A DNA stretch of 64,000 nt from Tepidicella baoligensis (GTDB lineage: Bacteria > Pseudomonadota > Gammaproteobacteria > Burkholderiales > Burkholderiaceae_C), in assembly GCF_013432195.1 (NCBI RefSeq), contig NZ_JACCDB010000012.1, positions 1 through 64,000 of the forward strand. The letters run 5' to 3'. A program made the translations under genes and the position numbers. The notes beneath the pieces are model-generated. The model had not been told where the DNA came from. It ran no database searches and saw nothing but the letters and a program-made list of their open reading frames with translations. Positions 29,990 to 64,000 of the stretch are shown here, in pieces. The stretch's first letter is position 1. Every line of letters starts with the position of its first letter.

Positions 29990-30098
29990 ATCAACCTCCT
30001 TACCAGAATCATTGGCAGATTATGCCAATCTCCGTGGTGCAGGTCAATCGATCGGTGTTGGCAGCCGAGACTTCTGTGAAATACCCACATCCTGTTGC

Positions 30099-30128
30099 TT
30101 GGCTTTCTGTGCGTTCAGCGCCTAAATC
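30099..30128 (+). promoter_or_regulatory. promoter-like element TTGGCT-18 bp-TAAATC with TTCAGCGC box
   Basis: TTGGCT (30099-30104), 18 bases ending GTTCAGCGCC, then TAAATC (30123-30128), 37 bases upstream of the ATG at 30165. Same architecture as the elements at 11169 and 25002. Confidence 0.5.
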
Positions 30129-46858: not shown

Positions 46859-47978
46859 GGAACTCCTCGACGGACTTGCCCAACAGGGCGGCGAGGATGC
46901 GGCCGGAGGCCTGACCATCGCCATAGGGGTTCGCTTTAGCACGAAGACTATTGCGGTGATGCTCATCCCCTAACCAAGTATTAACAGCCTCCTCGATAGC
47001 CAGAGTATCTTGACCTGCAAGGGTGGCAAAGCCAGCATGAACACCCTCCATGCGCTCTGTGTGCTGGCGCATCACCACTACCGGCGTACCGAAGGTCGGA
47101 GCCTCTTCCTGGATACCCCCAGAATCACTGAGTACCAGCTGGGCATGGCGGATGAGGTAGAGGCTGGTGTGGTAGTCCACCGGATCGGTTAGGAACAGGT
47201 TGGGGCGCCCCCCCAGCAGGCGATGTACTGGCTCTCGAACGGCCGGATTGAGGTGCACGGGGAAGATCCATTGCAGCTCGGAATAACGCTCACTGAGACG
47301 GGCCAGCATGTTGCAGAAAGCTTCCATCACGGCGCCGAAGTTCTCACGCCGGTGACAGGTGACCAGCACTGCTGGCCCGGCCTCAAGCCGAGCCCTGATT
47401 TCAGCTGGGACTGAGGATGGAATGCCAGCGGGCCAAGCAGCCTGCGCCTGCTGGATTGCATCAACTACAGTATTTCCGGTTACACGTATCCGTGATTCCT
47501 CCACCCCTTCTGTACGCAAGGCGCGGGCCGCGAGGCGGGTAGGTGCAAAGTGGAGGCTGGCGATGCGCGCCAACAAAGTGCGATTGGCTTCTTCCGGGAA
47601 AGGGCTGTTCAAGTCGCCGGTGCGCAGCCCCGCCTCTACATGCCCAACCCGGATCTGACGCTGGAAAGCGGCGAGCCCCGCGCAGAAGGCCGTGGTCGTA
47701 TCGCCTTGAACCAGCACCCAGTCGGGGCGCTCCTGCTCGAGCACAGCATCCATGCCCTCCAGCAGGCGGGCCGCAAGGATGTTTAGGGAACGCCCCGGGC
47801 TCATGGTGTCGAGCATATGGTTGGGGCGCAGACCAAATGCATCCAGGGCCTGTTGGAGCATTTCCCTGTGCTGACCGCTGGCGCAGACTTTCACCTCCAC
47901 CCGCTGCTGCAGGGCAGCGATGACCGGGGCCAGCTTGATGACTTCGGGGCGGGTGCCCAACGCAACCAGAACTTTCAT
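46851..47978 (-). CDS. wecB: UDP-GlcNAc 2-epimerase (non-hydrolysing)
   Basis: A 375-residue enzyme: GTRPEVIKLAP near the start, QGDTTT, RTGDLNSPFPEEANR, TCHRRENFG and SDSGGIQEEAPTFG, all conserved in the WecB family. It converts UDP-GlcNAc to UDP-ManNAc, which can be used directly or oxidised to ManNAcA (though the dehydrogenase here looks UGD-like). ATGA overlap with the deacetylase-like gene. Confidence 0.93.
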   Translation of the reverse strand: MKVLVALGTRPEVIKLAPVIAALQQRVEVKVCASGQHREMLQQALDAFGLRPNHMLDTMSPGRSLNILAARLLEGMDAVLEQERPDWVLVQGDTTTAFCAGLAAFQRQIRVGHVEAGLRTGDLNSPFPEEANRTLLARIASLHFAPTRLAARALRTEGVEESRIRVTGNTVVDAIQQAQAAWPAGIPSSVPAEIRARLEAGPAVLVTCHRRENFGAVMEAFCNMLARLSERYSELQWIFPVHLNPAVREPVHRLLGGRPNLFLTDPVDYHTSLYLIRHAQLVLSDSGGIQEEAPTFGTPVVVMRQHTERMEGVHAGFATLAGQDTLAIEEAVNTWLGDEHHRNSLRAKANPYGDGQASGRILAALLGKSVEEFHG

Positions 47979-49537: not shown

Positions 49538-50907
49538 GCAGTCACCACATGACGAAACTTAGAACGGACCCCAACCTTCACCAGGTCGGCCAAGGTCACG
49601 AACTCGATCGTGAAGGCGTTTGGCCAATGATGCTCGATTCGGCGGCGTATCTCTTCCGTATCGGCCGACGGCTCCTGAACGATGCGCAGGATCGGTTTCA
49701 ACGAGCGAAGGTCGATCTGGAATTCCTGTATTCCGCCAACCCGATGATCGAGAATGTCCATGATGTGGTGGGTCAGGTGCGCCACGCCATTGATGGGCAC
49801 CACGTCATGGATTCGACCGATTACATCGGAGAGCACGAATCCGTTTGCCCCCTTGGTGACACGGGCTCGGTCACCGGTGGCATAGCGGATGAGCGGCATC
49901 AGTTGGTTGCGAAAGCCGGTGAACACGAGCTCGTTGCCGTCGTCGATACTTCGGTGCTCTGGCCATCCTTCTGATTCGAAAACCTGTAGCCCCCCTTGTG
50001 GGCCATTGAGCTCGTAGGCCATGACGCCAAACTCGGCGAGTCCATAGCGATCCACCACCCTGCATCGCAAAACCTGCTCGATTTTTTCACGCATGTATGG
50101 CTGAAGCAGTTCTCCGCTAGATTCGAACACTTCGAATGCTTTACCACCGCCATACTTGCGTTCCACATGGCAGGCCAGCGCATAAATGGTGGAGGGGTGT
50201 TCGTGCAACAGGTAGGGCTGACGGCGCTTGATCGTGCGCCAGATCTCTTCGAGCCCCGCTTCGTCGACGCGGTCGAAGAAGACATTGCTACGGTTCATGG
50301 CGAAGCATTTGAAGTCTTCTCGGCTAGGCCACTGCGCAACGGCGACATCGGGGAACCGACAGGCGCAGTGCAGTTCTGTTTTGAATTTCTTCTTTCCGAT
50401 TCGCTCACGGGCATACAAGGTAACCGCCGCAGAGTAGTCGGCCGCCGGCTGGTCGTAGTAAATGACCGTCGACACCCCGGTCGATCCGCCTGTCTTGCAT
50501 GCGTGATGTCGGACCTGAGTCAGGGGTTGCGAGAGCATGCGCTCGCCTTGCTCGCGGATGATGTCCTTCGTTAGGTATGGCAGGTCGTTCAGGTAAGCAG
50601 GATCGCGCCGTACCTTTTCAGGATCGAAGTTTAGGCTGGCAAACAGATCTCGGTAATACGGAACCTTCTGACCGGCATGGTGGAGTATGTCGGCTAGACG
50701 ACCCTTGGCCACCGCCATTCGCTGTTCGAGCGGCAGACGATAGTGATGGCGGATTAGCGCGAGCCTGGGCCGCACACTGCGCTTTTCGAGATGCTCGGCC
50801 AATGGATAGGCCATATAGGCACTGACGAGCCCCTTTACGATGCGTAGAGGCTGCCGGGCAAAGGCGTGCTCTGCGACCTCGAGCAGCGGATGATCTGCAC
50901 GAATCAT
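49534..50907 (-). CDS. CapK/PaaK-like adenylate-forming enzyme
   Basis: A 457-residue member of the phenylacetate-CoA ligase-like superfamily found in capsule loci. Features: KVPYYRDLFASLNFDP, the SGS-like loop KTGGSTGVSTVIYY, DRYGLAEFGVMAYE, and a C-terminal ATGDRARVTKGANG. It may activate an acyl or amino group for attachment to the glycan; the substrate is unknown. ATGA overlap with the methyltransferase gene. Confidence 0.8.
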   Translation of the reverse strand: MIRADHPLLEVAEHAFARQPLRIVKGLVSAYMAYPLAEHLEKRSVRPRLALIRHHYRLPLEQRMAVAKGRLADILHHAGQKVPYYRDLFASLNFDPEKVRRDPAYLNDLPYLTKDIIREQGERMLSQPLTQVRHHACKTGGSTGVSTVIYYDQPAADYSAAVTLYARERIGKKKFKTELHCACRFPDVAVAQWPSREDFKCFAMNRSNVFFDRVDEAGLEEIWRTIKRRQPYLLHEHPSTIYALACHVERKYGGGKAFEVFESSGELLQPYMREKIEQVLRCRVVDRYGLAEFGVMAYELNGPQGGLQVFESEGWPEHRSIDDGNELVFTGFRNQLMPLIRYATGDRARVTKGANGFVLSDVIGRIHDVVPINGVAHLTHHIMDILDHRVGGIQEFQIDLRSLKPILRIVQEPSADTEEIRRRIEHHWPNAFTIEFVTLADLVKVGVRSKFRHVVTA

Positions 50908-51602
50908 TTGCCACTCCTGGGGCCATCATCTAGGGTACCCCCTTTGATGGATACCCCTCCGACCGGCGGCTGTCGCGCATCTGTGACCAGCGGGAAGGAA
51001 AAATCGCGATGCAAAAAGACGCTGGATGTCGATGTAAAGGCATTCACTGGAGAAAATCCACTGAAACGTACCTCGATCAGACCAGCACCTCGAAGCAACT
51101 CCGCCGTGTTCGGGTACCACTCAGCGTTATCCAGAATAATCATTCCACCAGGAATCAGTTTTTTAAGTGCGGCTTCGGCCGAGCGGTAGCGCTCAGCACC
51201 ATCGACCACAATCACATCGAATTGACCATCAGCTTCAATAATCTTTTGAGCGTAAGAGATTCCATCCGACTGGTGATTGAGCACCACATTGTCTGGAACA
51301 ATTTTGACAAGGCTATCAAACCATCGCCGATCGAGCTCGACGCTTTCTACGTGCTTGGCACGGCTGGCCCAGAAAAGTGTAGATGAACCCGCACCAAACT
51401 CAAATATACGCTTCTGACTAAAATCAAAGCCTTTAAGGTATTCAATCAATGGATAAGTCAGCCAAGGTTGATACTCGCCACGACCGTTCACTGGAAATCC
51501 ATCGCGTCGATTTACATGACCATGCTCTCTATGCATGATCAAGAGAATACGAGCCGCTGATATCAATCGCCTGGGAAGAATTTTCCGTAAAATATTCTTC
51601 AT
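50904..51602 (-). CDS. class I methyltransferase-like protein
   Basis: A 232-residue protein with FEFGAGSSTLFWASR, VESVELDRRWFDSL and FDVIVVDGAERY, a SAM-binding fold close to FkbM or O-methyltransferase types. It lacks an obvious membrane segment. It starts at the wzt end (ATGA overlap), so it could modify the exported chain. Substrate unknown. Confidence 0.75.
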   Translation of the reverse strand: MKNILRKILPRRLISAARILLIMHREHGHVNRRDGFPVNGRGEYQPWLTYPLIEYLKGFDFSQKRIFEFGAGSSTLFWASRAKHVESVELDRRWFDSLVKIVPDNVVLNHQSDGISYAQKIIEADGQFDVIVVDGAERYRSAEAALKKLIPGGMIILDNAEWYPNTAELLRGAGLIEVRFSGFSPVNAFTSTSSVFLHRDFSFPLVTDARQPPVGGVSIKGGTLDDGPRSGK

Positions 51603-52339
51603 TCGACAGCGACTTCCTCTCGCACAACCTTCTCGTCACTCATGATTTTGCCGTGTTCAAGATGGATTCTTCTGGTGCATACGCGCTCAATGAGCTTAGG
51701 ATCGTGAGAGGCAATAACTAGAATTCCCGCTTTACTGACAAGCTTCTCCAGTCGCACGGCAGCCTTTGCACTGAACTGGGCGTCACCAACGCTCAACCAT
51801 TCATCCATAATCAAAATATCGGCCTCCACACTTGTGGATATGGCAAAGGCCAGTCGCAACATCATGCCACTAGAATAAGTTCGAACAGGCAGATTAAGAT
51901 ACTCGTCCAATTCAGTGAAGTCAGCAATGTCGTCAATCTTGTCGCGAATTACAGAGGGCTTAAGACCATCCATGATTCCGCGTAAATAGATATTCTCAAA
52001 ACCAGTAGCGTCAGGATCAAGGCCCATTGAAACATCAAGTAAAGAGGCAATCTTTCCACGCACATCAAGCGAACCATGAACTGGTGCGTATACTCCTGAA
52101 AGTACGCGTAACAGCGTAGTTTTCCCTGAACCATTGTGCCCAGTTAGGCCGACGCGTTCGCCATGCTCAAAGGTGAAAGTGATCTGGTCAAGCGCCCGCA
52201 CCACCGGATGCTTTCCTGCATCGCTGCCGATCTTGCCTCCAGTGGTCAAGTTGAGCACCTTCTTCTTCAATGAGCGATGGGAGTTCTCGTAGATAGGGAA
52301 CTCGACTGTCACGCTCCGTGAATCAATGAATGCATTCAT
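51599..52339 (-). CDS. wzt: ABC transporter ATP-binding subunit for polysaccharide (Wzt/KpsT type)
   Basis: A 246-residue ATPase: Walker A GHNGSGKTT at 67-75, the degenerate signature YSSGMMLRL (155-158) typical of this subfamily, Walker B ILIMDEW at 174-180 and the switch His211. It lacks the C-terminal carbohydrate-binding domain that long Wzt proteins use to read a capped chain, so export is probably not chain-length gated by a methyl cap in that way. It lies three bases after wzm. Confidence 0.9.
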   Translation of the reverse strand: MNAFIDSRSVTVEFPIYENSHRSLKKKVLNLTTGGKIGSDAGKHPVVRALDQITFTFEHGERVGLTGHNGSGKTTLLRVLSGVYAPVHGSLDVRGKIASLLDVSMGLDPDATGFENIYLRGIMDGLKPSVIRDKIDDIADFTELDEYLNLPVRTYSSGMMLRLAFAISTSVEADILIMDEWLSVGDAQFSAKAAVRLEKLVSKAGILVIASHDPKLIERVCTRRIHLEHGKIMSDEKVVREEVAVE

Positions 52340-52342
52340 GAC

Positions 52343-53179
52343 TTACACCCAATAGGGAACACGGTTGCGCGCGCGCTGCATAAGGTATTGAGCGAGAGCA
52401 AAACCGACTAACAGCAGGCCGATACTCCATAGCCAGGAGGCAAGTTCTAGGTGTGAATTGATCATTGGAGCACGCACTATTTCGATCATGTGATATAGCG
52501 GATTTAGTTCAGCCAACCACGCTTTATCTTTGAGTAAACTCACTTGCCACATGACGGGCGTAAAGAAAAAAGCCACTTGAATCAAGTTGCCAACTATCGG
52601 GTAAACATCACGATAGCGCGCGCAAAGAATGCCAAGCACAATGCCGATCCACGCTCCGTGCAATAGCAGCAAGAATAGACCGGGAATGACCAAAAATAAT
52701 TTGATCCCAGGACGGTGGCCGAAAGCAAGCAAAAATAAAAATACAACGGGCAAGCTATGCATCAGCACGACGAAATTGCGCCACACTACACGCGCCACGT
52801 GAATCGTGAGCGGCATCCGTATCTGTTTGATGAGATAGGCGGAACCAATAAAGGTGTTTGCACCTTCATTGACAACGGTGCTGATGTATTGCCAAACCAC
52901 CAGTCCTACGCCAAGGTAGGGAAGGTAGTGGTGGATTTCTTGTCCAAGCAGCGTTGAATAGAGAATACCCAAGACACCCACCATAATAAGGGTGCTCAGC
53001 GTAAACCAAAAAGGTCCGATGACCGATCTACGATAGCGCTGACGTATATCGTGCCAGCCAAGGGCAAGCCAGACATGTGTTGCTTTCAGCCCAACCGTGA
53101 TGTCCGATTTCCCAGAATGGTTATGCCAAGATTCACTTTGATCCTCAACATCTGAGCGCGAAATATCAGACGCGGCCAT
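52343..53179 (-). CDS. wzm: ABC transporter permease for polysaccharide (Wzm type)
   Basis: A 278-residue membrane protein with six hydrophobic segments and the ABC2-type RQRYRRSVIGPFWFTLSTLI opening. It pairs with the ATPase to export the undecaprenyl-linked glycan. ATG 53179 overlaps the end of manC by 14 bases; an upstream ATG at 53224 lies further inside manC and is less likely. Confidence 0.9.
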   Translation of the reverse strand: MAASDISRSDVEDQSESWHNHSGKSDITVGLKATHVWLALGWHDIRQRYRRSVIGPFWFTLSTLIMVGVLGILYSTLLGQEIHHYLPYLGVGLVVWQYISTVVNEGANTFIGSAYLIKQIRMPLTIHVARVVWRNFVVLMHSLPVVFLFLLAFGHRPGIKLFLVIPGLFLLLLHGAWIGIVLGILCARYRDVYPIVGNLIQVAFFFTPVMWQVSLLKDKAWLAELNPLYHMIEIVRAPMINSHLELASWLWSIGLLLVGFALAQYLMQRARNRVPYWV

Positions 53180-54611
53180 AATTGTCCTGAAAGCGCACAA
53201 TGTCATCCTCACCAAGATATTCACCGCTTTGCACTTCGATCATTACCAGATCAAGTACACCAGGATTTTCGAGTCGATGCTTGTGGCCTGCCGGGATGTA
53301 TGTGGACTCATTAGTGCTCACCATGATTTCACGTTCGCCATTAACGACTTTGGCCATGCCTCTCACCACAATCCAATGCTCGCTGCGGTGATGGTGCATT
53401 TGCAAGCTAAGGCTGGCACCGGGCTTGACCTCAATGCGCTTGATTTTGAAATGAGGCCCCTCTTCCAGCACGGTATAAGTGCCCCAAGGCCGGGCTACAG
53501 TGCGATGCAATTTGTAGGCTTCGTGCAGTTTGGATTTCAGCTGGGCTACCACCTTTTTTACGTCTTGTGATTTATCTGGATGCGCCACCAGCAAGGCATC
53601 GGGCGTATCAATGATCATGAGGTTGTCCACCCCAACGGTGGCGACCAGCCTGTCTTCGCTCTGCACAAAGGTGTTGCGGCTATCGACAAAGATGACCTCT
53701 CCCAGCGCACGGTTTTGATTGTCATCAGGGTGTACCAAATCTTTTACTGCGGTCCAGGAACCGATGTCACTCCAGCCGAAATCAGAAGGAACAACAGCCA
53801 CTTGGCTGGACCGCTCCATGACGGCATAGTCAATCGATATATCCGGCACCTGAGCGAACATCTGGGTCGGGATATCAATCATTTGATCAGCGGCATTGGG
53901 TTGGGCAGTAACGGCTTGCCAGCAAGCCTCAATAGCGGAAGCCACGTCAGGAGCATGCTGAGTTATTTCTTCCAGTAGGCGGCCTGCCTGGAAGCAGAAC
54001 ATGCCGGAATTCCAGTAAAAATTGCCGCTTGCCAAGTAGGCTTGCGCCTTTTCGAAGGACGGCTTCTCAACGAAACGAATGGCCTTTCGGCCGTGTTGCA
54101 TGGTTTCACCAGCTTCGATATAGCCAAACCCCGTCTCTGGGCCACTAGGCACGATGCCAAAAGTAACCAAATAGCCATGTTGGGCCAAAGTTGCGGCATC
54201 GGCCACAGCAGCATTGAATGCGCTCTGGTCTTGAATGAGATGGTCTGCCGCTAACACCAGCATCAATGCATCTGGGCCGTACTTATTCGCTATGTGTTGA
54301 GCGGCCAGTGCCACTGCGGGGGCAGTGTTACGGCCAACAGGTTCGAGCAAAAACATGCCCGGGCGGCGCTCACCCAACTGGGCTGCAGCCAGCTCATCTT
54401 TGCTCATGAAATAGTAGTCACGGTTAGTGACAGTAATCAACTCACCTTTCTCGCTGCCCAAAGCATCTACAGCGGAGGCTGCGCGTTGGTAGGTTTTGAG
54501 CAGCAGGCTCTCACCGTCGGCGAGTTTCATGAAGGGTTTGGGATGGCCTTCACGCGATACCGGCCAAAGGCGAGTGCCGGCACCGCCAGAAAGAATTACA
54601 GGAATTAACAT
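53166..54611 (-). CDS. manC: mannose-1-phosphate guanylyltransferase/mannose-6-phosphate isomerase
   Basis: A 481-residue bifunctional enzyme: GGAGTRLWP (9-17), FVEKP and FGWSDIGSW in the nucleotidyltransferase domain, then a C-terminal cupin isomerase (GASLSLQMHHHRSEHW). It makes GDP-mannose. No GDP-mannose dehydratase is present in the window, so mannose itself may be the unit used. It is 15 bases after ugd. Confidence 0.93.
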   Translation of the reverse strand: MLIPVILSGGAGTRLWPVSREGHPKPFMKLADGESLLLKTYQRAASAVDALGSEKGELITVTNRDYYFMSKDELAAAQLGERRPGMFLLEPVGRNTAPAVALAAQHIANKYGPDALMLVLAADHLIQDQSAFNAAVADAATLAQHGYLVTFGIVPSGPETGFGYIEAGETMQHGRKAIRFVEKPSFEKAQAYLASGNFYWNSGMFCFQAGRLLEEITQHAPDVASAIEACWQAVTAQPNAADQMIDIPTQMFAQVPDISIDYAVMERSSQVAVVPSDFGWSDIGSWTAVKDLVHPDDNQNRALGEVIFVDSRNTFVQSEDRLVATVGVDNLMIIDTPDALLVAHPDKSQDVKKVVAQLKSKLHEAYKLHRTVARPWGTYTVLEEGPHFKIKRIEVKPGASLSLQMHHHRSEHWIVVRGMAKVVNGEREIMVSTNESTYIPAGHKHRLENPGVLDLVMIEVQSGEYLGEDDIVRFQDNYGRV

Positions 54612-54626
54612 GAGTTTACCGTTGAA

Positions 54627-55796
54627 CTATTCATCGAAACCAAAAACATCGCGAGTAAAAACTTTACCCGCCACATCGCTCAACTCAGTAGAGCCTCGAT
54701 TGGCAACAATCAGATCTGCCACATTCTTAAATTGAACTAAATTATTCTGCACCCGAGAGCCGAAAAACCAAGATTCATTAAGTACAGGCTCATACACAAT
54801 AACTTCAACACCTTTGGCCTTGAGACGTTTCATGACCCCTTGAATGCTAGAGGAGCGATAGTTGTCAGAACCGGCTTTCATGACCAATCGATAGATACCA
54901 ACCACTTTCGGTTTTTGACGCAGAATCTCGTCCGCAATGAAGTCTTTGCGAGTGGCATTGGCCTCCACAATGGCGTTGATGAGGTTTTGCGGCACATCGC
55001 GGTAGTTGGCGAGAAGCTGCTTGGTGTCCTTCGGTAGGCAGTAGCCGCCATAGCCGAAGCTTGGGTTGTTGTAGTGGGCACCGATGCGGGGGTCGAGGCA
55101 GACGCCGTCGATGATCTGGCGCGTATCCAGGCCGTGGGTGGCGGCGTAGGTGTCGAGTTCGTTGAAGTAGGCCACGCGCATGGCGAGGTAGGTGTTGGCG
55201 AAGAGCTTTATCGCCTCAGCCTCAGTGCTGTCGGTGAACAGCATGGGGATGTCTTGCTTGATCGCGCCTTCCTGGAGCAGATGGGCAAAGGTTTCGGCGC
55301 GGTCCGAGCGTTCGCCGACGATGATGCGCGAGGGGTGCAGGTTGTCGTAAAGCGCTCGGCCTTCGCGGAGGAATTCGGGCGAAAAGATGAGTTTGTCGCA
55401 ACCGAGCTCGGCCTTGAGCTTTGCCGTATAGCCCACCGGCACGGTGGACTTGATCACCATCACCGCCTGTGGATTGATGGCCAGCACGTCGCGCACCACG
55501 GCCTCAACGGACTTCGTGTTGAAGGTGTTGGTCTCGGGGTCGTAGTCGGTGGGGGTGGCGATGACGACGAACTCGGCACCTTCATAGGCTTCGCGCTTGT
55601 CCAGCGTGGCGCGCAGGTTGAGCGGCTTGTGCTGGAGGTAGTCCTCGATCTCGGTATCGACGATGGGAGAGTGCTTGCGATTGAGCATCGCCACCTTCTC
55701 GGGGACGATGTCGAGAGCGACCACTTCGTGGTGCTGAGCCAGCAAAACGGCGTTGGACAAGCCAACGTAGCCGGTGCCTGCGATGGCGATTTTCAT
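54627..55796 (-). CDS. ugd: UDP-glucose 6-dehydrogenase family protein
   Basis: A 389-residue NAD-dependent nucleotide-sugar dehydrogenase: [11 protein letters not shown] at the N terminus, EFLREG, and the catalytic cysteine in [12 protein letters not shown]. The length fits UDP-glucose dehydrogenase. UDP-glucuronate is the likely product; a UDP-ManNAc dehydrogenase role (with wecB) cannot be excluded without alignment. ATG 55796 is the first gene of the polysaccharide operon, downstream of the ops site. Confidence 0.9.
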
Positions 55797-55902
55797 GAGG
55801 GGAGATGCTCCCGGAGAATGCACACGCGCAGCATGACCTCGATTTCCGTTCGGAAACCGGTCATTCGATTTAATTGGGAAATGATGATCAATGCGCTTTA
55901 GG

Positions 55903-55914
55903 CACGCTACCGCC
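55903..55914 (-). promoter_or_regulatory. ops element (RfaH recruitment site)
   Basis: On the minus strand GGCGGTAGCGTG, identical to the canonical 12-base ops core, 107 bases upstream of ugd and 149 bases downstream of the rfaH stop. A candidate -10 (TATAAA, 55979-55974) and a small inverted repeat (GCAGC/GCTGC, 55981-55995) precede it. Strong sign that the whole operon is elongated under RfaH. Confidence 0.92.
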
Positions 55915-56062
55915 GTGCCGTTTCACGATCAGCAAGCGCGGTCAGCGAGGTTCAACAGGGGATTCCGAGGCTTTTTATAAGCAGCGGAGTGCTGCAAAAG
56001 GCCTAACGGATGGTTGTATTTTGCCACACCGGCATGACTTTGAGAAATGTTTCGACCGAGCT

Positions 56063-56560
56063 TCAGCCGAGCTTGCGCAGGTTGGCCGGCGCAACCCGCA
56101 CCCGGACTTGCTTGGAGAGCAGTTCGATCAACACCATGACGCGGCGCTCGCCGTCGGCCATTTGGTAGATGCCTTCGATACCAGCAAACGGCGCTTCGGT
56201 CAGACGCACGCGCTCACCGGGCTTGAACAGGCGCTCTGGCTCGGCCTGAACAGATGCCTCTTGCGCACGAAGGGCCTCGACCAGCGAGCCGGACACCTTG
56301 GCCGGCTCCACCCCGAAACTGACCAGCCGGCTGACGCCTTTGGTCGAGCGGATGGGTGCCCAGCTTGGCGCTGAATCCCCCTGACCCAGGCGGATGAACA
56401 GATAGCGCGGGAACAGGGGTTCTTCTACCACCGTCAGCACGCCCTGGCGGATTTTTTCGGACGGGAGGGTGGGCAGATAACACTGATAACCTTGGCGCTG
56501 GAGGTTTTCCAGGGCGCACTTTTCCTGCCTGGGCTTGGTATGGACGAGATACCAGTGCAT
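56063..56560 (-). CDS. rfaH: RfaH transcription elongation factor
   Basis: A 165-residue NusG paralogue: N-terminal NGN domain starting HWYLVHTKPRQEKCALENLQ, the YLFIRL and PIRSTKGVSRLVSFG segments, and a C-terminal KOW-like domain (FKPGERVRLTEAPFAGIEGI). These are the features of RfaH, which binds RNA polymerase paused at ops and suppresses termination. ATG 56560 is preceded by GGAGG; a GTG at 56566 overlaps that site and is rejected. Unusually it sits directly beside its own target operon. Confidence 0.93.
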   Translation of the reverse strand: MHWYLVHTKPRQEKCALENLQRQGYQCYLPTLPSEKIRQGVLTVVEEPLFPRYLFIRLGQGDSAPSWAPIRSTKGVSRLVSFGVEPAKVSGSLVEALRAQEASVQAEPERLFKPGERVRLTEAPFAGIEGIYQMADGERRVMVLIELLSKQVRVRVAPANLRKLG

Positions 56561-56646
56561 GACCACCTCCGAAGGTTATTTTTATTGTCAGCATTTTACC
56601 CTCCGGTATTGCGGTGCGGCAATGAATCTGTCCTATGTCGCCTCCC

Positions 56647-57717
56647 CTATTGCGCCGGGGCTTCCGCCTCGGGCGGTTCTTCGAATTCTCCATCGGCCTC
56701 CAGTTGCTGCTGTACCGCCTCTTCCATGCTCACGGTATTCACCACCAGCTCGAAATGCTCGAGGATTTCGGGCTCGTGCCGGGTGATGTAGCTTTTGACG
56801 GCATCGTTGCCGAGCAGTTTGGTCAGGTAGCCCTTAGCCACCACCAGGTTGAGCAAGTCAGAGCCGTAGTTTTCTTCGGCGTCCTTGTACTGGGTCTGCA
56901 CCTGGCTCATTTCCTTTTCGAGTTTGACGATCTGCTCGATCGGGGCCAGTTGCTTGTCACGCTCCGAGGGTTTGAAGTCGGTGCGCTGCTCTGGAGGCGT
57001 GGCCTTGAGCAAGGCGTCGGCATGGGCCACGGTGATGGTGTTGCTGGCGACCATCAGCTCTACCGCCTCCACCTGCCGGGCGGCCTTCATGTTGCGCAGC
57101 ACCCGCGTCACGTCGGGTGTGAATTGCTTGTCCTGCAACCGGGCGATGGCGTCCGGGCAGATGCCTTCGAGCAGGTTGATGCGCCGGTTGATGGAGCTCA
57201 AGTTCACGCCAAAGGCCCGGGCCAGGCGTTCCTTGCTCACCCCGCGATCAATGGCGCGGCGGATCATGTAATGCTCCTGGATGGTCGAGAGCCGGTTGAT
57301 GCGGTGGTTGTAGGTGTAGGTCTCGTCGTCCTTGGCGATCAGGCAGGGGGCCTCGTGGACACCGAGATCCTTCAGTGCCAGCACCCGCAAATGGCCATCG
57401 AGCAGGATGAATTCCGGCTTGGCCGGGTCGTGCTGGATCACCGACAAGGGTTCGATCAGGCCGATTTCATGGATGGACGAGACGACCTGCTTGTACTTGC
57501 GGGTGCTCATCACACCTTCTTGAATCCGCTTGCTGGGCATCAGGGTGTCGAGCGGGATCTGGTAAGTCTCCAGATCGAAGCCGAGCAAGGTGTTGAGCGG
57601 GGCCGTGGGCAGGTTGGGGCCCTCCTCAGCCTCATCGGCCTGATGGATACCGGGGTACATCGGCGTGATGTTGGGTTGGGCCAGTTGTGCCCGTTGTGCG
57701 TTCGTGGCGGGGTTCAT
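56647..57717 (-). CDS. RepB-like ParB-family protein
   Basis: A 356-residue protein with a ParB N-terminal fold (IPLDTLMPSKRI, ILLDGHLRVLALKDLG at 104-119) and a helix-turn-helix (SKERLARAFGVNLSSINRRI), followed by a helical C terminus like the plasmid RepB C-terminal domain. No catalytic nuclease motif is apparent. It is coupled (ATGA overlap) to the second ParB-family gene. No ParA is present, so its role is not classical plasmid partition. Confidence 0.82.
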   Translation of the reverse strand: MNPATNAQRAQLAQPNITPMYPGIHQADEAEEGPNLPTAPLNTLLGFDLETYQIPLDTLMPSKRIQEGVMSTRKYKQVVSSIHEIGLIEPLSVIQHDPAKPEFILLDGHLRVLALKDLGVHEAPCLIAKDDETYTYNHRINRLSTIQEHYMIRRAIDRGVSKERLARAFGVNLSSINRRINLLEGICPDAIARLQDKQFTPDVTRVLRNMKAARQVEAVELMVASNTITVAHADALLKATPPEQRTDFKPSERDKQLAPIEQIVKLEKEMSQVQTQYKDAEENYGSDLLNLVVAKGYLTKLLGNDAVKSYITRHEPEILEHFELVVNTVSMEEAVQQQLEADGEFEEPPEAEAPAQ

Positions 57718-58613
57718 GTCGTGGCTCCATTCAGGTTGTCGATGCGCTCTGCGAGGTACTTGGGCAACGTGTCCAGCCCCTCGGCGCGCAGCAGGTTGAC
57801 GAAATGCTCATCCGAGAAGAGTTTTTTGAGGCCCTGGACGACCAGCAGCAGGCGCTGGTGCGCGTGCTCGGCCTTGAGGACCATCTTGCGTTGGCGCTCG
57901 ACTTCGCGCTGGTAGGTGCGCACCAGGCTGTAGCTGGAAGTAGGCGGCTTGATCTGGGCAGGATCGGGTGAGCCGGGGCCGTAAGCTTGGCGTTTTTCGA
58001 CGAGGCGCTTGGTCTCGATGATCTGGCGCCGGTTGAGCTGGCCGTTCTCGTAAGCCTCCTGCAGCATTTCGCCCAGGCTCTCGTCATCGTCCTTGGCACG
58101 AGCGATTTCAAGGGCTGTGGTGAGCGGGATGGCGCCGCGTTGCACGCCTTCGATCAGGCGTTCTTCCCCCTGGTCCAGAAGGAAGACGATGTCCTTGACG
58201 TACTTGGGCGAGAGACCGGTTTTGTGGATGATGGTGTCAGCGTCGTAGCCGCGCTTGCGCAGGATTTCGATGTCGGCCAGGATTTCCAGGGGACGGTGGC
58301 CGCGCCGGGCGATGTTCTCGGCCAGGCTCATGATGAAGGCGTCTTCGTCGCTGACGTCGACCACCAGGGCGGGGATGTGGGTTTCGCCCAGAATGCGGAA
58401 GGCGTTGAGTCGCCCTTCGCCGCAGACCAGCAGGTACTTGGGATGTCCATCATCACCGGGGCGTTCGGTGACGGTGATGGGTTTCTTCAGGCCGATCGAT
58501 TTGATGTTCTCGACGATCTCCTCGAAGATTTTCATGTTGCGTTCGCGGGAGTTGAGGATTTCAACGCGGGCGATGGGGATCAGAGTGACGGTTTCGGGGG
58601 TGCCGGTCAGCAT
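57714..58613 (-). CDS. ParB-family protein
   Basis: A 299-residue ParB-like protein: GEGRLNAF (65-72, variant of the GERRxRA CTP motif) and ENIARRGHRPLE (99-110, the second ParB box). A helix-turn-helix region (HKTGLSPKYVKDIVFLL) and a coiled tail follow. ATG 58613 has GGAGG upstream; an ATG at 58652 is out of frame. With its neighbour it forms a pair of ParB-type proteins downstream of a serine recombinase. Confidence 0.82.
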   Translation of the reverse strand: MLTGTPETVTLIPIARVEILNSRERNMKIFEEIVENIKSIGLKKPITVTERPGDDGHPKYLLVCGEGRLNAFRILGETHIPALVVDVSDEDAFIMSLAENIARRGHRPLEILADIEILRKRGYDADTIIHKTGLSPKYVKDIVFLLDQGEERLIEGVQRGAIPLTTALEIARAKDDDESLGEMLQEAYENGQLNRRQIIETKRLVEKRQAYGPGSPDPAQIKPPTSSYSLVRTYQREVERQRKMVLKAEHAHQRLLLVVQGLKKLFSDEHFVNLLRAEGLDTLPKYLAERIDNLNGATT

Positions 58614-58707
58614 GGGGGCCTCCGTTTGAGTGGGTGCGTTGGCGTGGTTGTCATGGGGCTTCCTTTCTTGGGATGGTTGGGTGGATGGGTCAGCGGCGTC
58701 AGATTCG

Positions 58708-60288
58708 TCAGATGCGCCGTTGCAGGCGCTCCCGTTCGGACATGCCGTAGAAGAAGGTGAGGTCGTCGAAGCGAAAGCACTCAAAGTCGGCGCTGTTTTT
58801 GTTGCTGACGCGGATTTCCTGCTCGGGCAGGTCGAGCCTGGGCAGCAGGTAGTAGTCGAGCTCCTGGGTGTTGGCGGGATCGAGCCGGATGGCCACCGTG
58901 ATGTCGGGGTGGCCGGTGTCAAACAGCCGTGCCGGATCGAACCGGATGCGCCAGCGCAGATGGCCCGTCGGGGTGGTTTGGCAGCGGGCCAGCACCAGGC
59001 TGATGACCAGCTCGTCGTTGAGGGTCAAGAGATCGGTCTTGGGGTCGCGCCGGATGTGGCCACCCAGCTCGGCAATGGTGTGCTCGGTGCGGGCGATGAT
59101 TTCTGGGTGGAGCTGGCGCAGGCGGCGGTTGATTTCCAGATGCTCGGTGCCGCCCGGTGGGCGGTAACCAATCAGCTCGTAGGCGCGGACGAGGCTGCCA
59201 AAGCGCGAGGTGTACAGGCTGGCCGAGGGGCCGTTGGCCACCTGGTCGATGATGAAACCCGACAGGCGACCGCACTCGGCGTAGAGCGCCTTCAAGTGGT
59301 TGAGCAATTCCTCGTCCGTCAGCCGTTTGCTGCGCTCGGTCAGCACCTCCTGGGCGGCCAGAAAGGTGTCCAGCGGCACGATGCCCTCGAACGCCCCCTC
59401 CTTGCGGATCCACATCTCGGGCGGGTTGTCGACGTGCTTTTTCTTGAGCTTGAAGGAGTGGCGGTTGTAAACGTTGTTGCCGATGTACTTCTCGTTGGTC
59501 AGCACCTGGCGCACCGTGCTGTAGGTCCAGGGGCGGTCCAGATCGGTGTGGATGGGGATGTCGTTGAGCCGCTGGGCGATTTCAGACAGGGGGAGATCGT
59601 CATCGACCAGCCAGCGGTAGATCTGGTGGACTGTGGCCACTTCCTGCGCCGGCCCCGGCACCAGGATCACCCGGTCGGTTTGCAGGCTTTTGTGCTCGCC
59701 GGGTTTCAAGGTGGCTTTGATGGCACCGCTCTGGTCAATCAGCACCCGGCGTAGGCCGAAGCCGGCCGGGCCGCCCTGGCGAAAGCCGAGCTCGATCAGG
59801 CGGCACTGGCCGGCAAACACCTTGGCCGAGAGTTCGCGGCTGTATTCGCCAGCCATGGCGCGCTTGACGCCTTTGACGATGGTTGAAACGGGGGAGCCAT
59901 CGTTTTCAAACTGCTCGGCGACGTAGGCGACGCTGATGCCCTGGCGCTTGCAGATGTACTCGTAATAAGCGGATTCGTCCGCGTCCTGAAACCGGCCCCA
60001 GCGGCTGACGTCGTAGACCAGGATCAGGTTGAAATCGGTGTTGCCCGATTCGACATCGGCGATCAGTTTCTGTAGGGAGGCGCGGCCACCGATGGAGAGG
60101 CCGCTTTTGCCGTCGTCGGCATAGGTGCGCACGATCTCGATGCCCCGCTTGTCGGCGTACTCGCGGATCTTGTCGGCCTGGTTGAGCGTGGAGTATTGCT
60201 GGTGTTCAGTGGACATGCGCACGTACTGGGCGGCCCGGAAGGCTCTGGTGTCGGGGTGGTGGTCGGTGGAGATGTCAGTCAATGCCAT
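58708..60288 (-). CDS. large serine recombinase (ParB/RepB-cassette type)
   Basis: A 526-residue recombinase: catalytic Ser26 in AQYVRMSTEHQ, ILVYDVSRWGRF, the recombinase domain (QGGPAGFGLRRVLIDQ) and VLTNEKYIGNNVYNR. It lacks the cysteine zinc ribbon of phiC31-like enzymes. Length and opening differ from the recombinase at 23041, so this is a second, independent integrase. It precedes the two ParB-family genes with 94 bases between. Confidence 0.9.
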   Translation of the reverse strand: MALTDISTDHHPDTRAFRAAQYVRMSTEHQQYSTLNQADKIREYADKRGIEIVRTYADDGKSGLSIGGRASLQKLIADVESGNTDFNLILVYDVSRWGRFQDADESAYYEYICKRQGISVAYVAEQFENDGSPVSTIVKGVKRAMAGEYSRELSAKVFAGQCRLIELGFRQGGPAGFGLRRVLIDQSGAIKATLKPGEHKSLQTDRVILVPGPAQEVATVHQIYRWLVDDDLPLSEIAQRLNDIPIHTDLDRPWTYSTVRQVLTNEKYIGNNVYNRHSFKLKKKHVDNPPEMWIRKEGAFEGIVPLDTFLAAQEVLTERSKRLTDEELLNHLKALYAECGRLSGFIIDQVANGPSASLYTSRFGSLVRAYELIGYRPPGGTEHLEINRRLRQLHPEIIARTEHTIAELGGHIRRDPKTDLLTLNDELVISLVLARCQTTPTGHLRWRIRFDPARLFDTGHPDITVAIRLDPANTQELDYYLLPRLDLPEQEIRVSNKNSADFECFRFDDLTFFYGMSERERLQRRI

Positions 60289-60312
60289 GGTCGGTCAATC
60301 TTTTTGTTGTGT

Positions 60313-60360
60313 GAGGCCATGTTGGCTTCGAAGGCCAAGCCGTATCAAGGCCATGAGGCC
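60313..60360. repeat. inverted repeats between the recombinase and the HTH-RfaH gene
   Basis: TTGGC and GCCAA flank TTCGAAG (60322-60338), and two GAGGCC copies bound the region. This could be a recombination site, a recombinase operator or a weak terminator. It lies in the 120-base gap between the two minus-strand genes. Confidence 0.4.
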
Positions 60361-60408
60361 TATACCGTCGAGATAAATTGGCCCAGGCAAGCGAAGTGCA
60401 GTCATGCT

Positions 60409-61335
60409 TCACCCCACCTTGCGCAGACTGGCTGCGTCGATCGTCATGGCCACAGGTTTGCTCAAGAGATCCAGCAGCACCATGGCGCGGCCCTCGGCAT
60501 CGTTCATCTGGTAGATCGCCTCCAGCCCGGCAAAGGCGCCTTCGGTGATGCGCACGCTGTCGCCATGAGCAAATAAGGTGGTCGGGGTGCCCTGCTGCGC
60601 GATCTCACGCTCGCGCAGGGTAGCGATCAGGGCGTCATCGACCCGCGCGGGTCGGCTGCCGAAGGACACCAATTCGCTCACGCCGACGGTGGAGCGGATC
60701 GGGCTCCAGCTCTGGCCTTGGCCCCTTTCGTGACCTGATGTGTCGAGCCGCACGAACAAGTAGCGCGCGAACATCGGCTCTTGCACGACGGTGGATTTGC
60801 GGCGGACGAGTTTTTCGGTGGCGAACAGCGGGAGGTAGGACTCATAGCCCTGGCGTGCCAGGTGAGTAAGCGCCACCGATTCCTGTCGGGGCTTGCTGCG
60901 CACCAGGAACCAGGCCGATGTGGCGGGTGTAACTGGTGTGGCCGGTGCGGGTTTTTGAGGGGGTGGCGGTGAGACGGCGGGGGTTTTGGGGGGCGGCGTG
61001 GCGGGCGTAGCTGGCGTAGCGGACGTAAGAAGCTTGGAGGATGGCCGCGGATTGGGCACGGGGGCCGGTAGCCCCTCTTCTGGTGGCGGCGATCGCAGCA
61101 ACTGCGCCATGGCACGGATCAGCGGCAGCGGCCTTGCCGTGGCCAGCACCTGCTCGACCAGGGCCAGCATCTCGCGGCGCTCGTACGCCGCAATGTCTTC
61201 GACCTGGTAGCCGACCTGCAGGCCGGTCTGGGTGATGGCCAGGCCCTCGTCCGCATCGCGCAGTTTGTAGAGCGCCTGCACAGGCAGGCCGAGACGCTCG
61301 GCGGCTTGTGGCGAGGTCAGCAGGCGCGGGGCCAT
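60409..61335 (-). CDS. HTH-linker-RfaH fusion protein
   Basis: A 308-residue chimera. Residues 1-55 look like a MerR/AlpA helix-turn-helix (LLTSPQAAERLGLPVQALYK, then GLQVGYQVEDIAAYERREML). Residues about 80-139 are a Pro/Thr/Ala-rich linker. Residues 140-308 match the local RfaH along their whole length (WFLVRSKPRQES, PIRSTVGVSELVSFG, ITEGAFAGLEAIYQMNDAEG). It would be a NusG/RfaH-type elongation factor with an added DNA-binding head. ATG 61335 has no strong ribosome site. Confidence 0.8.
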   Translation of the reverse strand: MAPRLLTSPQAAERLGLPVQALYKLRDADEGLAITQTGLQVGYQVEDIAAYERREMLALVEQVLATARPLPLIRAMAQLLRSPPPEEGLPAPVPNPRPSSKLLTSATPATPATPPPKTPAVSPPPPQKPAPATPVTPATSAWFLVRSKPRQESVALTHLARQGYESYLPLFATEKLVRRKSTVVQEPMFARYLFVRLDTSGHERGQGQSWSPIRSTVGVSELVSFGSRPARVDDALIATLREREIAQQGTPTTLFAHGDSVRITEGAFAGLEAIYQMNDAEGRAMVLLDLLSKPVAMTIDAASLRKVG

Positions 61336-61436
61336 GGGGCGTGGGGCAAGGTGAACATGCCTCCATGAAGGCGCTGTTCGCGAACAAAGCCAAGGCCATC
61401 TGGCGAGTGTTGTGCAAATTTCTGGCCCACAAACGA

Positions 61437-61492
61437 CAAAAGACCCCGCCTTCACCAGCCACCCATAAGGGAAGCGGATGAAGACGGGGTCT
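61437..61492 (-). terminator. terminator of prophage late operon
   Basis: On the minus strand a 14-bp stem with one mismatch (AGACCCCGTCTTCA / TGAAGGCGGGGTCT) with a 24-base loop is followed by TTTTG. It lies 43 bases past the holin stop. Confidence 0.7.
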
Positions 61493-61534
61493 ATGGTTTA
61501 CTGCTGTTGCGTTTGCTGCAGCCGCTGGTGTTGC

Positions 61535-61963
61535 CTACCTGGGCACGCCGCGCCACTTGTCGAAACTGCGTGCGCCGGTGTAGCCGAGGTAGCCTGCACC
61601 AAAGAGCCACCACAAGCTCTCGGGCACCGCATTGAGCAGCTTGGAGAGGTTTTCGGCGGCCTGAAACACCTCGGCGGGCCACCAGATGCCGATGATGCTG
61701 CCGATCACCGAAAGTAGGATCACGCCGTAGATCACGTACAGAAAGGTTGGGCGTGCCCGACTGGTCCACGGGTCGGCCGAATTGGCTTCCGCCAGTATGG
61801 CCGAGAGGCTCACCTGCATTTCCTGCAAGGCCTGCTGACCTTCAGCTTGAAACAAGGCGAGCTTGGCCTGCTCGCGCTGGGCTGGATCGGGAATCAGGCG
61901 GTCGATCAGTTTGGCACCGGCTTCGAAGAGGCCGGGCGCGAGCGTTGTGAAGATCGGGCTCAT
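61535..61963 (-). CDS. 3-TM holin-like protein
   Basis: A 142-residue protein with hydrophobic segments at FLYVIYGVILLSVIGSIIGI and WWLFGAGYLGYTGA after a helical soluble N terminus (KLIDRLIPDPAQREQAKLAL). This is the pattern of the 3-TM holins of gene-transfer agents and prophages. It overlaps the stop of the DUF6127 gene by ATGA and is the last gene of the late operon. Confidence 0.8.
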   Translation of the reverse strand: MSPIFTTLAPGLFEAGAKLIDRLIPDPAQREQAKLALFQAEGQQALQEMQVSLSAILAEANSADPWTSRARPTFLYVIYGVILLSVIGSIIGIWWPAEVFQAAENLSKLLNAVPESLWWLFGAGYLGYTGARSFDKWRGVPR

Positions 61964-62250
61964 TGCGGGCCTCCGAACAGTTTGATTTTGACGATGGTGC
62001 CGGCGAGCAAGGCCAGCACGAGACCGGTGACCAGCATCTTGACCAGCGTGAGGCCGGCGGTTTTCTTGGCCTCGTTGAAAGCGTCGAGCAGATTCCTAAG
62101 CTCGCGGATGTCGTTTGCAGCATCCGGGCCATCCAGGCCGACATCGGACAAGGCGTGACGCGCCCCACGCTCGGCGGCGCGCTCCAGCAGGGTTTCAAAT
62201 TCGTCATGGGGCATGACCACCATGCCATCCATCAGGTGGGGTTCGTTCAT
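61960..62250 (-). CDS. DUF6127 phage protein
   Basis: A 96-residue protein with a helical acidic N-terminal part (DEFETLLERAAERGARHALS) and one C-terminal membrane helix (KMLVTGLVLALLAGTIVKIK). It fits the DUF6127 family of tail-tip-adjacent phage proteins, probably an accessory of lysis. ATG 62250 has GAAAGGA upstream; longer frames upstream are unsupported. Confidence 0.75.
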   Translation of the reverse strand: MNEPHLMDGMVVMPHDEFETLLERAAERGARHALSDVGLDGPDAANDIRELRNLLDAFNEAKKTAGLTLVKMLVTGLVLALLAGTIVKIKLFGGPQ

Positions 62251-62261
62251 CTTCTTTCCTT

Positions 62262-64000
62262 TCAGATTGGGGCGGTGCTGCTGTCGACACTGCCATCGGC
62301 GCTGTGCACACCCGAGTGCTCGGCCACGCAGGTGATTTCCACCTGCTCGCCACGCGGGCGCACCGCGATCACCCGGGCCAGCAGGCTCCATTGCTCGGCG
62401 ATGCCAAACGCAAAATGGGTGCGCTCGGCCGACAGGCCGGTTTCGATGGGGATGTCGGGCAGGTCGGCAAAGACCACCTGCTGCGCATCGTTGCCCGGCA
62501 TCACCGCATGCGGGCCGCTGACCCCGCCATCGCGACGGCGCAGGGCCATGACATGTTCTTGCCCATCGACAAATGCGACTGGCTCGGACAGCTTGGCGGT
62601 GTGGGTGTCGGCATCCCAGGCGACGATTTCGCCGCCCGCGCCCCAACTGGGCATGTCATGGGCAATGGCGATCAGATCGCCATAGGTGGGAATCAGGCCT
62701 TCGAGCTCGGTGCGCAAGGTGATGATGCGACGGCGGTAGCGGTTGGCCGCCGCCAGATACAACCCCTCGCGCACTGCGTGTGCTTCGGTGGTGCAGCCAA
62801 AGAGCCGCAGCTTGGCCGGGTTGGTGCTGCTGGAGCCCGGCAGGCTCACCGTCACTTCATCGGGTTTCCAGGTGCGGCTGCTGAAGAACTCCACCGTCAC
62901 CGCGTCCGCCGTCTCTTCGCCCGGCATCACGTACTGGATCTTGAGGCTGTTCTTGACGATGTTGCGCGGACTGAAGAGCGCCACGGGCAGTAGCCGGGCT
63001 TCGTCGCGCACCAGGCGCACAATGCCGCCCTGTAGGAAGGGCACCGCTCGCCCACAGCGGGCGACCCGAGTCAACGCCTCCCAGACGGTGACCTGCTGGT
63101 CAAAGACACCATCGAACCGATCACCCCGACCGGCCCAAACCTGATCCAGTTGCGCCAAGGCGGCGAGATCGATTCGGGCATCTGGCAGTTTGGCCCCGTA
63201 GCTCGCACGCAAGATGTCGGCAAAGGCCCATGCGATCGAACGCGTGGGCAATGGAGCAGACCAGCCAGAGTCCACCGACCAGACCGGCAGCTTGCGCGTG
63301 ACGATGCAGTTGATGAGCCGACTGGAGCGCTGCGACAGGTTATCGGTGGCGCGCATGCGGATGGCGAGCAGTGTGACGTTGTCAGGGAAAGTGATACCGC
63401 CGGCCAGACAGCCCCGGGCCTCACCCCAGCGTACCTCGTGCCCGGCGCGGGAACTGCTGTCCTTGCCATCGAGCCGCGTGGCACGCACTTCGTATCGCCC
63501 TGCTGCAATGGGATAACGGTAAGTGCGCCGCTGCGGCGTTGTGGTGGCAGCGGTCAGGCTCTCATTGCCCAGCGTGAACCAGTCGTTCAGTGGCTCGCCC
63601 TCGGCATCGATGGCCCGGGCTTCGACCTTCCAGCTGGCACTGCGGCTGTCCAGGCCACCGGCGTCATTGGCGTAATACAGCCCGCGCGGCAGCAGGATGT
63701 CGATGCCAATGTGCGTGATTTCACTGTCGGCCGGGTTGATGGCAAAGCCTCCTGTCCAGGTCCCGGCCAGCAGTTCCTGCCCGGCGACCTCTGGCGCGGT
63801 CACCACATCCGGGTTGAAGAGCGTGACCGGACTGCCGGGCGGCACGATCTGGTAGGTCACTTCCTCAAACGAGGCAATCGGCGTGTCCTCGATGCGAATC
63901 TGCTCGATGTCGTATTCGCCCAAGCCGATGCAGTGCAGTTGATGCAGGAACTGTTCATTGCCCTGATATTCGCCATAGGGGGTGGCAGCCAAATCCGGAT
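62262..64000 (-). CDS. phage tail-tip host-specificity protein J, C-terminal part (partial)
   Basis: An open frame running off the right edge, 576 residues from the first possible start in the window, but the frame continues beyond it. VQRWTYRYP-like strands, an insertion with ATRLDGKDSS, and the fibronectin-like and baseplate-type segments near VWAGRGDRFDGVFDQQVTVW and PGNDAQQVVFADLPDIPIET are those of lambda J-like tail-tip proteins. It would bind the receptor. The true start lies outside the window. Confidence 0.8.
   Translation of the reverse strand, partial: PDLAATPYGEYQGNEQFLHQLHCIGLGEYDIEQIRIEDTPIASFEEVTYQIVPPGSPVTLFNPDVVTAPEVAGQELLAGTWTGGFAINPADSEITHIGIDILLPRGLYYANDAGGLDSRSASWKVEARAIDAEGEPLNDWFTLGNESLTAATTTPQRRTYRYPIAAGRYEVRATRLDGKDSSSRAGHEVRWGEARGCLAGGITFPDNVTLLAIRMRATDNLSQRSSRLINCIVTRKLPVWSVDSGWSAPLPTRSIAWAFADILRASYGAKLPDARIDLAALAQLDQVWAGRGDRFDGVFDQQVTVWEALTRVARCGRAVPFLQGGIVRLVRDEARLLPVALFSPRNIVKNSLKIQYVMPGEETADAVTVEFFSSRTWKPDEVTVSLPGSSSTNPAKLRLFGCTTEAHAVREGLYLAAANRYRRRIITLRTELEGLIPTYGDLIAIAHDMPSWGAGGEIVAWDADTHTAKLSEPVAFVDGQEHVMALRRRDGGVSGPHAVMPGNDAQQVVFADLPDIPIETGLSAERTHFAFGIAEQWSLLARVIAVRPRGEQVEITCVAEHSGVHSADGSVDSSTAPI

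Follow-up and report, generated by a model that had tools for sequence, protein, structure and literature searches.

How a specialised NusG paralogue finds its target has been worked out in atomic detail for RfaH and the ops element. The locus studied here raises the question of how, and at which genes, an RfaH would be recruited when a DNA-binding-type domain is joined to its front. The ORF concerned lies on the minus strand at positions 60409–61335 of the window, by which we mean the whole 64,000-nucleotide stretch of Tepidicella baoligensis DNA that was analysed, and it encodes 308 residues from an ATG at 61335. Its product, HTH-RfaH, is an RfaH-type transcription elongation factor with an excisionase-type fold added at the N-terminus, and it is carried on prophage-like elements.

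Architecture of the HTH-RfaH protein

The initial annotation held that about 170 C-terminal residues align with the local RfaH, and this was borne out: residues 142–308 match residues 5–167 of the latter with 90 identities in 170 positions (53%, E 1e-58), and HTH-RfaH scores 157.1 bits against the RfaH model TIGR01955, above the curated cut-off of 144.5. This part begins with an NGN domain of RfaH type at residues 140–240 (60616–60918, minus strand), detected by Pfam NusG (E 5.3e-18), whose AlphaFold model superimposes on E. coli RfaH (8pen) over 101 residues at 1.7 Å with a Z score of 13.9. The KOW/C-terminal domain, also of RfaH type, follows at residues 241–308 (60412–60615, minus strand), as judged from the TIGR01955 match, which spans residues 142–304, and from the alignment with the local RfaH.

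The helix-turn-helix (HTH) head and the proline-rich linker that had been proposed in front of this module were both found. The head (residues 1–84; 61084–61335, minus strand) comprises a winged helix-turn-helix at about residues 5–53, then helices at 45–65 and 69–80, on the evidence of profile, predicted fold and purifying selection. The profile search of the head for an HTH gave a divided result. The window protein's own match to Pfam HTH_17 (residues 5–53, E 0.0035, 18.0 bits) stayed under the cut-off of 27, as did five other relatives scanned, of which three gave no HTH hit at all at E 0.1, whereas the head of the relative L109b (L109:3–308; 47% identical to the window protein over the aligned part) reached 27.2 bits, and a PDB search with a profile built from 11 heads returned the excisionase RdfS (8dgl, E 7.9e-6). 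Residues 1–80 of the AlphaFold model showed pLDDT values of 74–87 per 10-residue block, and the predicted head superimposes on the GIsul2 excisionase 8c3t (Z 7.9, 2.0 Å, 56 residues) and on MerR-family and Xis structures (Z 6.9–7.0; Xis 4j2n 6.9, MerR 3hh0 7.0); Z values under 8 may reflect a common arrangement and are no proof alone, and here the sequence profile agrees with the fold. Taken from model and profile, the head is strongly predicted to be a winged helix-turn-helix of the excisionase/RdfS/MerR type, and the objection that it might match no HTH falls away on the relatives and on the fold. The contig of L109b also carries L109a (L109:349–669, minus strand), a separate small HTH gene directly before the second, contig-cut head; the reading of this pair as two standalone heads was set aside, L109b being probably the cut N-terminus of an HTH-RfaH.

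The linker (residues 85–139; 60919–61083, minus strand) is predicted to be disordered, with 21 Pro, 8 Ala and 8 Thr among the 56 residues at about 84–139, pLDDT values under 50 at residues 82–136, and a dN/dS of 0.46. The mean pLDDT of the complete model was 69.6, an earlier model from 11 close sequences having been poor (38.6).

The alternative to a fusion, that is, translation from a downstream start codon near the NGN domain, fails the selection test. Across the 11 sequences of the window's own clade (clade 1), dN/dS was 0.13 in the head, 0.14 in the following helix, 0.11 in the NGN domain and 0.17 in the C-terminal domain. Because the value of the head is near that of the NGN domain, the head is a translated and selected part of the protein, and purifying selection on it like that on the RfaH part excludes the downstream start. 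A longer version starting at GTG 61455 is unneeded; in L007, the frame closes shortly upstream and the gene has its own ATG. By eye, no Shine–Dalgarno sequence was seen near the ATG of the window's HTH-RfaH. We count the two-domain structure and its conservation among the features that are directly observed or strongly predicted.

The functional residues of the RfaH part were compared in 27 aligned HTH-RfaHs, in E. coli numbering and with residue roles taken from PMC7593976 and from the accessible part of PMC5995543. Residues K10, R23, Q24, E48, F51, Y54, F56, and R138 are kept in all 27, among them F56, which contacts RNA polymerase, and E48, which acts in autoinhibition; at the other two autoinhibition positions (PMC7593976), 18 proteins retain I93 and 9 carry V instead, and F130 is replaced by Y throughout, as in 15 of 48 other RfaHs. 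As for the ops contacts (K10, H20, R23, R73), position 20 is H in 6 and N in 21 of the proteins, and position 73 is V, I or L in all 27, the seven local plain RfaHs all having K there. The loss of R73 as proof of lost ops recognition was rejected: the change is undiagnostic because 31 of the 48 other RfaHs also have L, I or V. An RfaH module with its RNA polymerase contact residues and most of its autoinhibition residues is thereby seen or strongly predicted.

Relatives and descent of HTH-RfaH

At least 30 HTH-RfaH sequences (29 of them complete) were found, on mostly betaproteobacterial MAG contigs and on viral contigs, and they fall into three clades of 11 (clade 1, window included), 10 (clade 2), and 9 (clade 3) members. 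The count is a lower bound, one scan having covered 80 of 238 candidates; in L120 the final two residues are missing, and one phage, sampled in two metagenomes, seems to account for both L091 and L100. Full-length relatives came from five loci in public MAG contigs, in a search that also gave the headless RfaH L010, and from five viral contigs. The two further clades, 46–51% identical, emerged from scans that used a conserved DNA site, the terminator or the profile of the head. Two HTH-RfaH modules (L008 and L009, JAIXUS010000045.1) share one 239-kb contig labelled Bacteroidetes, which is possibly misbinned betaproteobacterial DNA.

Among 399 order-level genomes, strong matches to the head were seen in two, the organism's own and G235, with a weak one in G263 (5.8e-4); the head was matched in 1 of 60 relatives (the own genome) and in 1 of 32 genomes of the family of G235 (G235 itself). 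Searches with the full-length protein or profile gave a whole-length match in the own genome only, among 150 family and 369 class genomes, one of the latter (G729) matching a portion of the head weakly (8.5e-4). In addition, none of the 50,697 phage records and none of the 72,556 plasmid records searched reached 80% coverage.

In a tree of 83 NGN–KOW sequences, which leaves out L100, L120, and L133 (the contig of L095), each clade received 100% bootstrap support, and the three clades formed one group together with the headless plasmid RfaH L016 (support 90/92). The simplest reading of this tree would be a single old fusion of head and RfaH, although the place of L016 inside the group would also fit a loss or a repeated gain of the head.

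The 50-residue core of the head is acidic in all 11 clade 1 sequences (net charge −1 to −2, pI 4.7–5.0) and in all nine of clade 3 (−3 to −5, pI 4.2–4.8), near neutral in clade 2 (−1 to +2 in the 6 of 10 examined), and +4 in the standalone L109a. The acidic heads of clades 1 and 3, together with a recognition-helix region that is nearly invariant across clade 1, would fit a head that no longer binds DNA and now binds a protein, for example ParB, the recombinase or a subunit of RNA polymerase, the factor being recruited through that partner. However, the heads of clade 2 are near neutral, the related single HTH genes are more basic, and no partner is known, so that such protein-mediated recruitment seems to us quite improbable.

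The phage-recombinase module and its surroundings

Along the minus strand, the genes follow each other in the order tail protein J, holin, terminator, HTH-RfaH, serine recombinase, ParB1, ParB2, plain RfaH, ops, and polysaccharide operon. The phage genes upstream encode tail protein J (62262–63992 for the ORF as listed; phrog_469, phrog_31) and the holin (61535–61963; phrog_3427, 4.9e-31), and an intrinsic terminator (61435–61492; −40.8 kcal/mol, z −8.7), kept in 11 of 11 clade 1 sequences, separates the holin from HTH-RfaH. The same phage terminator was noted in L104, L110, and L111 with another downstream cassette, which has a long poly-C tract and is possibly phase-variable. On the other side lie the large serine recombinase (58708–60288; Pfam Resolvase and Recombinase) and two ParB/RepB-like proteins. 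ParB1 (57714–58613; Pfam and matches in relatives) has an approximate start, since its ORF opens at 58922 but offers no ATG before 58613, and the similarity to several relatives begins only around residue 101; ParB2 is encoded at 56647–57717 (Pfam RepB, 1.1e-36). Next comes an ordinary, headless RfaH (56063–56566) with its own conserved promoter-like site (56593–56622), all of these features being on the minus strand.

In all 27 relatives whose sequence extends far enough, the recombinase gene lies downstream of HTH-RfaH and on its strand, and the other three of the 30 contigs (L093, L120, L123) end at the HTH-RfaH stop codon or within about 160 nt of it. Both this linkage and the prophage-like setting are seen directly or strongly predicted, and the linkage is consistent with the suggestion, made from sequence at the outset, that the protein may act on the recombinase cassette. 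Read-through from HTH-RfaH into the recombinase would not be universal, because in two contigs 1.1–1.6 kb with polysaccharide-type genes separates them: a nucleotidyltransferase on the opposite strand in L098 (8622–9760), and a family 2 glycosyltransferase and a NUDIX protein in L136 (5888–7490). In both cases, the recombinase retains its own upstream region.

The constant presence of the recombinase, and the fact that, among solved structures, the head comes closest to excisionases (RdfS, GIsul2 Xis, and Pukovnik Xis), could also be explained by a recombination directionality factor or recombinase regulator, the head acting on the serine recombinase or an att site and the RfaH part coupling this to transcription. 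However, relatives of the recombinase occur in 17 of 149 other family genomes, with a ParB1 match adjoining in 13 of the 17, and none of 19 stretches around such relatives (about 1.5 kb on each side) showed a match to HTH-RfaH. Moreover, winged-helix directionality factors are described with tyrosine recombinases in the accessible part of PMC11963761, and no att site was identified at the locus. We consider it unlikely, to a marked degree, that HTH-RfaH is primarily such a factor.

Behind the plain RfaH, a conserved leader contains a perfect copy of GGCGGTAGCGTGC (55902–55914, minus strand), which we take to be the ops sequence, and leads into the polysaccharide operon, whose first gene belongs to the UDP-glucose/GDP-mannose dehydrogenase family (UDPGDH; 54627–55823, minus strand); the leader is presumably JUMPstart-like. 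The leader between plain RfaH and the next gene is conserved in all seven loci aligned (window, L005, L007, L008, L009, L011, L014), with GGCGGTAGCGTGC perfect in six and altered in L009. The genes behind it are of polysaccharide type in the window, L005, L007, L011, and L014, encode an ABC transporter and a GHMP kinase in L008, and, as far as found, are on the other strand in L009. In contrast to this leader, the stretch from HTH-RfaH to ParB2 (window 56600–62000) has no full ops, showing only the 8-base GGCGGTAG inside ParB2 (57067). Two other contigs differ behind ParB2: in L122, a UDPGDH gene is preceded by a perfect ops, but the interval from ParB2 to this gene holds no plain RfaH, and L129 (clade 2) has a 101-residue ORF and no recognisable polysaccharide gene. 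The latter ORF had looked primase-like by eye, a reading dropped as it gave no Pfam match.

The arrangement in L122 would suit an ordinary, ops-dependent RfaH that serves the polysaccharide cargo of the element, with the head as an accessory for stability, dimerisation or minor help in targeting. The same role would fit the retention of the ops-contact residues K10, R23, and Q24, along with E48 and R138, and the recurrence of polysaccharide-type genes by the modules, be it after the plain RfaH (the five loci named above, with L008 compatible), after ParB2 (L122) or between HTH-RfaH and recombinase (L098, L136). However, clade 1 already has an ordinary RfaH, with its own promoter-like site, directly before ops; L009 carries an altered ops, with the genes found behind its plain RfaH on the other strand; in L129 the ORF without a Pfam match takes the place after ParB2, and selection on the head is as strong as on the NGN domain. 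On balance, we find this role rather unlikely.

A 17.7-kb stretch of G235, a 2.0-Mb genome from a different family, is 92% identical at the nucleotide level to window 45861–63593, spanning polysaccharide genes, RfaH, the ParBs, the recombinase, HTH-RfaH, and part of tail J. The shared stretch has 47–64% GC (4-kb windows) and adjoins DNA of 38–46% GC, and 14,750 bases compared from the viral contig L011 recur exactly in G235. The 17.7 kb, in which polysaccharide genes are joined to phage genes, form part of a GC-rich region of at least 76 kb (G235:C1 50–126 kb, L054–L057) in this low-GC genome. Elsewhere in the window, genes for a TOTE-type primase–helicase, a GmrSD endonuclease, a helicase and an N6/N4 methylase at 143–10765 form a probable defence cluster. 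In addition, positions 23041–26186 encode another serine recombinase, accompanied by DUF2924 and an M78 peptidase, and an XRE protein adjoins this set in G235, an arrangement of M78 and XRE that we take to resemble ImmR/ImmA control.

Conserved DNA sites and the proposed recruitment of HTH-RfaH

Two conserved DNA sites were considered as places where the head could bind. Site A, the promoter-like CTTGGCTT-N10-CAGCGCCTTCAT at 61365–61394 (minus strand), ends 29 nt before the ATG of HTH-RfaH and is conserved in the three clades in the form TTGRCT, 17 bp, STTCAT, with CAGMGC constant in the spacer. A scan for the exact pattern found at least 120 viral stretches, of which 118 were examined and gave 198 copies, up to seven per stretch. 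Behind 172 of the 198 copies there was an ATG that is preceded by a Shine–Dalgarno sequence and opens an ORF of 45 codons or more, located 20–39 nt downstream in 159 of them, this being a filter that favours cases with a gene shortly behind the site. HTH-RfaH was present in 2 of the 118 stretches, XRE in 17, M78 in 17, DUF2924 in 43, rec2 in 41, and a small head-related HTH protein in 39, the XRE and M78 genes being presumably ImmR/ImmA-like. In the own genome, eight places match Site A with at most two mismatches, against none in the reversed control, and these include a small head-related HTH gene at 30165 (30165–30476, plus strand, with its promoter at 30098–30127) and the DUF2924-recombinase operon at 25003.

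A Site A private to HTH-RfaH was rejected on these data, as 116 of the 118 stretches with the site show no HTH-RfaH, and because the protein occurs in just two of them, the reader of Site A is probably another protein. Judging from its sequence context, Site A looks like an element-wide promoter family, marking a large mobile-element regulon that would include HTH-RfaH. The palindrome TGTTCGCGAACA was also discarded as a general operator, since it is not kept in L007, L011 or any Site A of clades 2 and 3 compared. As an observation in its own right, the repeated element CTTGGCTT-N10-CAGCGC-STNNAT (window 61365–61394, 24974–25003, 30098–30127, and 11168–11197; loci L216–L333) stands before DUF2924-recombinase operons, small HTH genes, and short ORFs.

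Site B, the highly conserved CTTGATACGGCTTGGCCTTCGAAGCCAACATG before the recombinase (60318–60349, minus strand), is different in L105 and L132, although both proteins have a typical clade 2 head. That the site changes with the recombinase and not with the head weakens Site B as the operator of the head, and the site probably belongs to the recombinase. The sequence CTTCGAAG was absent upstream of 15 of 15 recombinase relatives without HTH-RfaH (15 of 19 loci, with L208–L210 omitted for their distance and L213 because it nearly duplicates L202), an absence equally explained by common descent, because those recombinases are 52–80% identical to the window's.

The explanation we prefer, tentatively and at a little under an even chance, is that of a prophage-borne, two-part factor of the NusG family, whose head docks at the DNA of the element while its RfaH body rides RNA polymerase. 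The excisionase/MerR-type head would bind or dock on the element that encodes it, close to the promoter region either of the adjoining recombinase–ParB–ParB operon or of the HTH-RfaH gene itself. The long flexible linker would then let the RfaH module, presumably closed when free, reach a polymerase that is starting or passing, and the module would stay on it and suppress both pausing and Rho over one of the element's operons. DNA binding and antitermination are what we infer here for head and body, respectively, the operator and the target operon being candidates.

The strongest support for this docking mechanism comes from the architecture, the selection, the family of the head and a module in which no full ops occurs; it is further supported by the recombinase that follows HTH-RfaH wherever there is room, and by the small head-related HTH gene of the window, located behind the same type of promoter as HTH-RfaH. 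It is made doubtful above all by the acidic heads of clades 1 and 3, with no site assignable to the head, and also by Sites A and B both having other plausible readers, by the ops-contact residues K10, R23, and Q24 kept in the HTH-RfaHs, by the genes that intervene before the recombinase in L098 and L136, and by the window ATG without a nearby Shine–Dalgarno sequence. As to the operator that the initial annotation had put forward in place of, or besides, an ops pause, recruitment by DNA instead of ops is possible, in view of the RdfS-type family of the head and the module without a full ops, but the acidic heads, the wide sharing of Site A, the way Site B tracks the recombinase, and the ops of L122 stand against it. 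The fuller version, in which a double-stranded DNA operator at a promoter would recruit the NusG paralogue by a Q-like loading on an RfaH body, driving the recombination/partition operon of a prophage that moves together with polysaccharide clusters, is conceivable, and we hold it to be doubtful.

Some precedents exist for parts of this mechanism. According to the accessible parts of the papers, RdfS binds upstream of intS, in the integrase promoter region, and activates its transcription (PMC11963761), AlpA of Pseudomonas aeruginosa, whose binding element is located between −10 and −35, goes on to act as an antiterminator (PMC7969949), and GafZ of Caulobacter is similar to AlpA and has a predicted HTH (PMC11150451). 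For GafZ, a ChIP-seq peak that starts from a promoter and trails downstream is reported. The proposed logic, a DNA-bound, phage-type gene regulator passing to RNA polymerase, would be common to AlpA, GafZ, and HTH-RfaH by analogy only, as neither of the former is described as NusG-related in those texts. With excisionases and directionality factors (RdfS 8dgl, GIsul2 Xis 8c3t, Pukovnik Xis 4j2n, HTH_17), HTH-RfaH shares the fold and profile of the head and a mobile-element setting by a recombinase; in contrast to them, its head is fused to an elongation factor, is acidic in two of three clades, and has a Pfam score of its own below the cut-off.

With RfaH (TIGR01955; E. coli 2oug and 8pen) HTH-RfaH has in common the NGN–KOW module described above, and it differs in the 84-residue winged-helix head and proline-rich linker, RfaH being NGN–KOW alone, as well as in its place in a phage-recombinase module without a full ops beside the neighbouring operon. 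LoaP, UpxY, and ActX/PrfaH are likewise specialised NusG paralogues; however, HTH-RfaH scores below the cut-offs for LoaP and UpxY, and the accessible portions of the literature mention no HTH head for any of the three. Some NusG homologues have gained extra domains, such as domain DII of Thermotoga NusG (PMC7819879, accessible part). In the accessible open-licence literature, no NusG/RfaH protein with an HTH head was found described, which is weak evidence of absence.

In conclusion, RfaH and the excisionase-type winged helix are each known, and their fusion is a new architecture within a known family, in which an excisionase-type regulator and an elongation factor are joined in one mobile-element protein linked to cell-surface polysaccharide genes. 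As a natural RfaH with a separate DNA-binding-type head, present in three clades and accompanied by headless relatives, it makes a swap of the recruitment signal directly testable, and HTH-RfaH may reach its genes differently from the known RfaH proteins.
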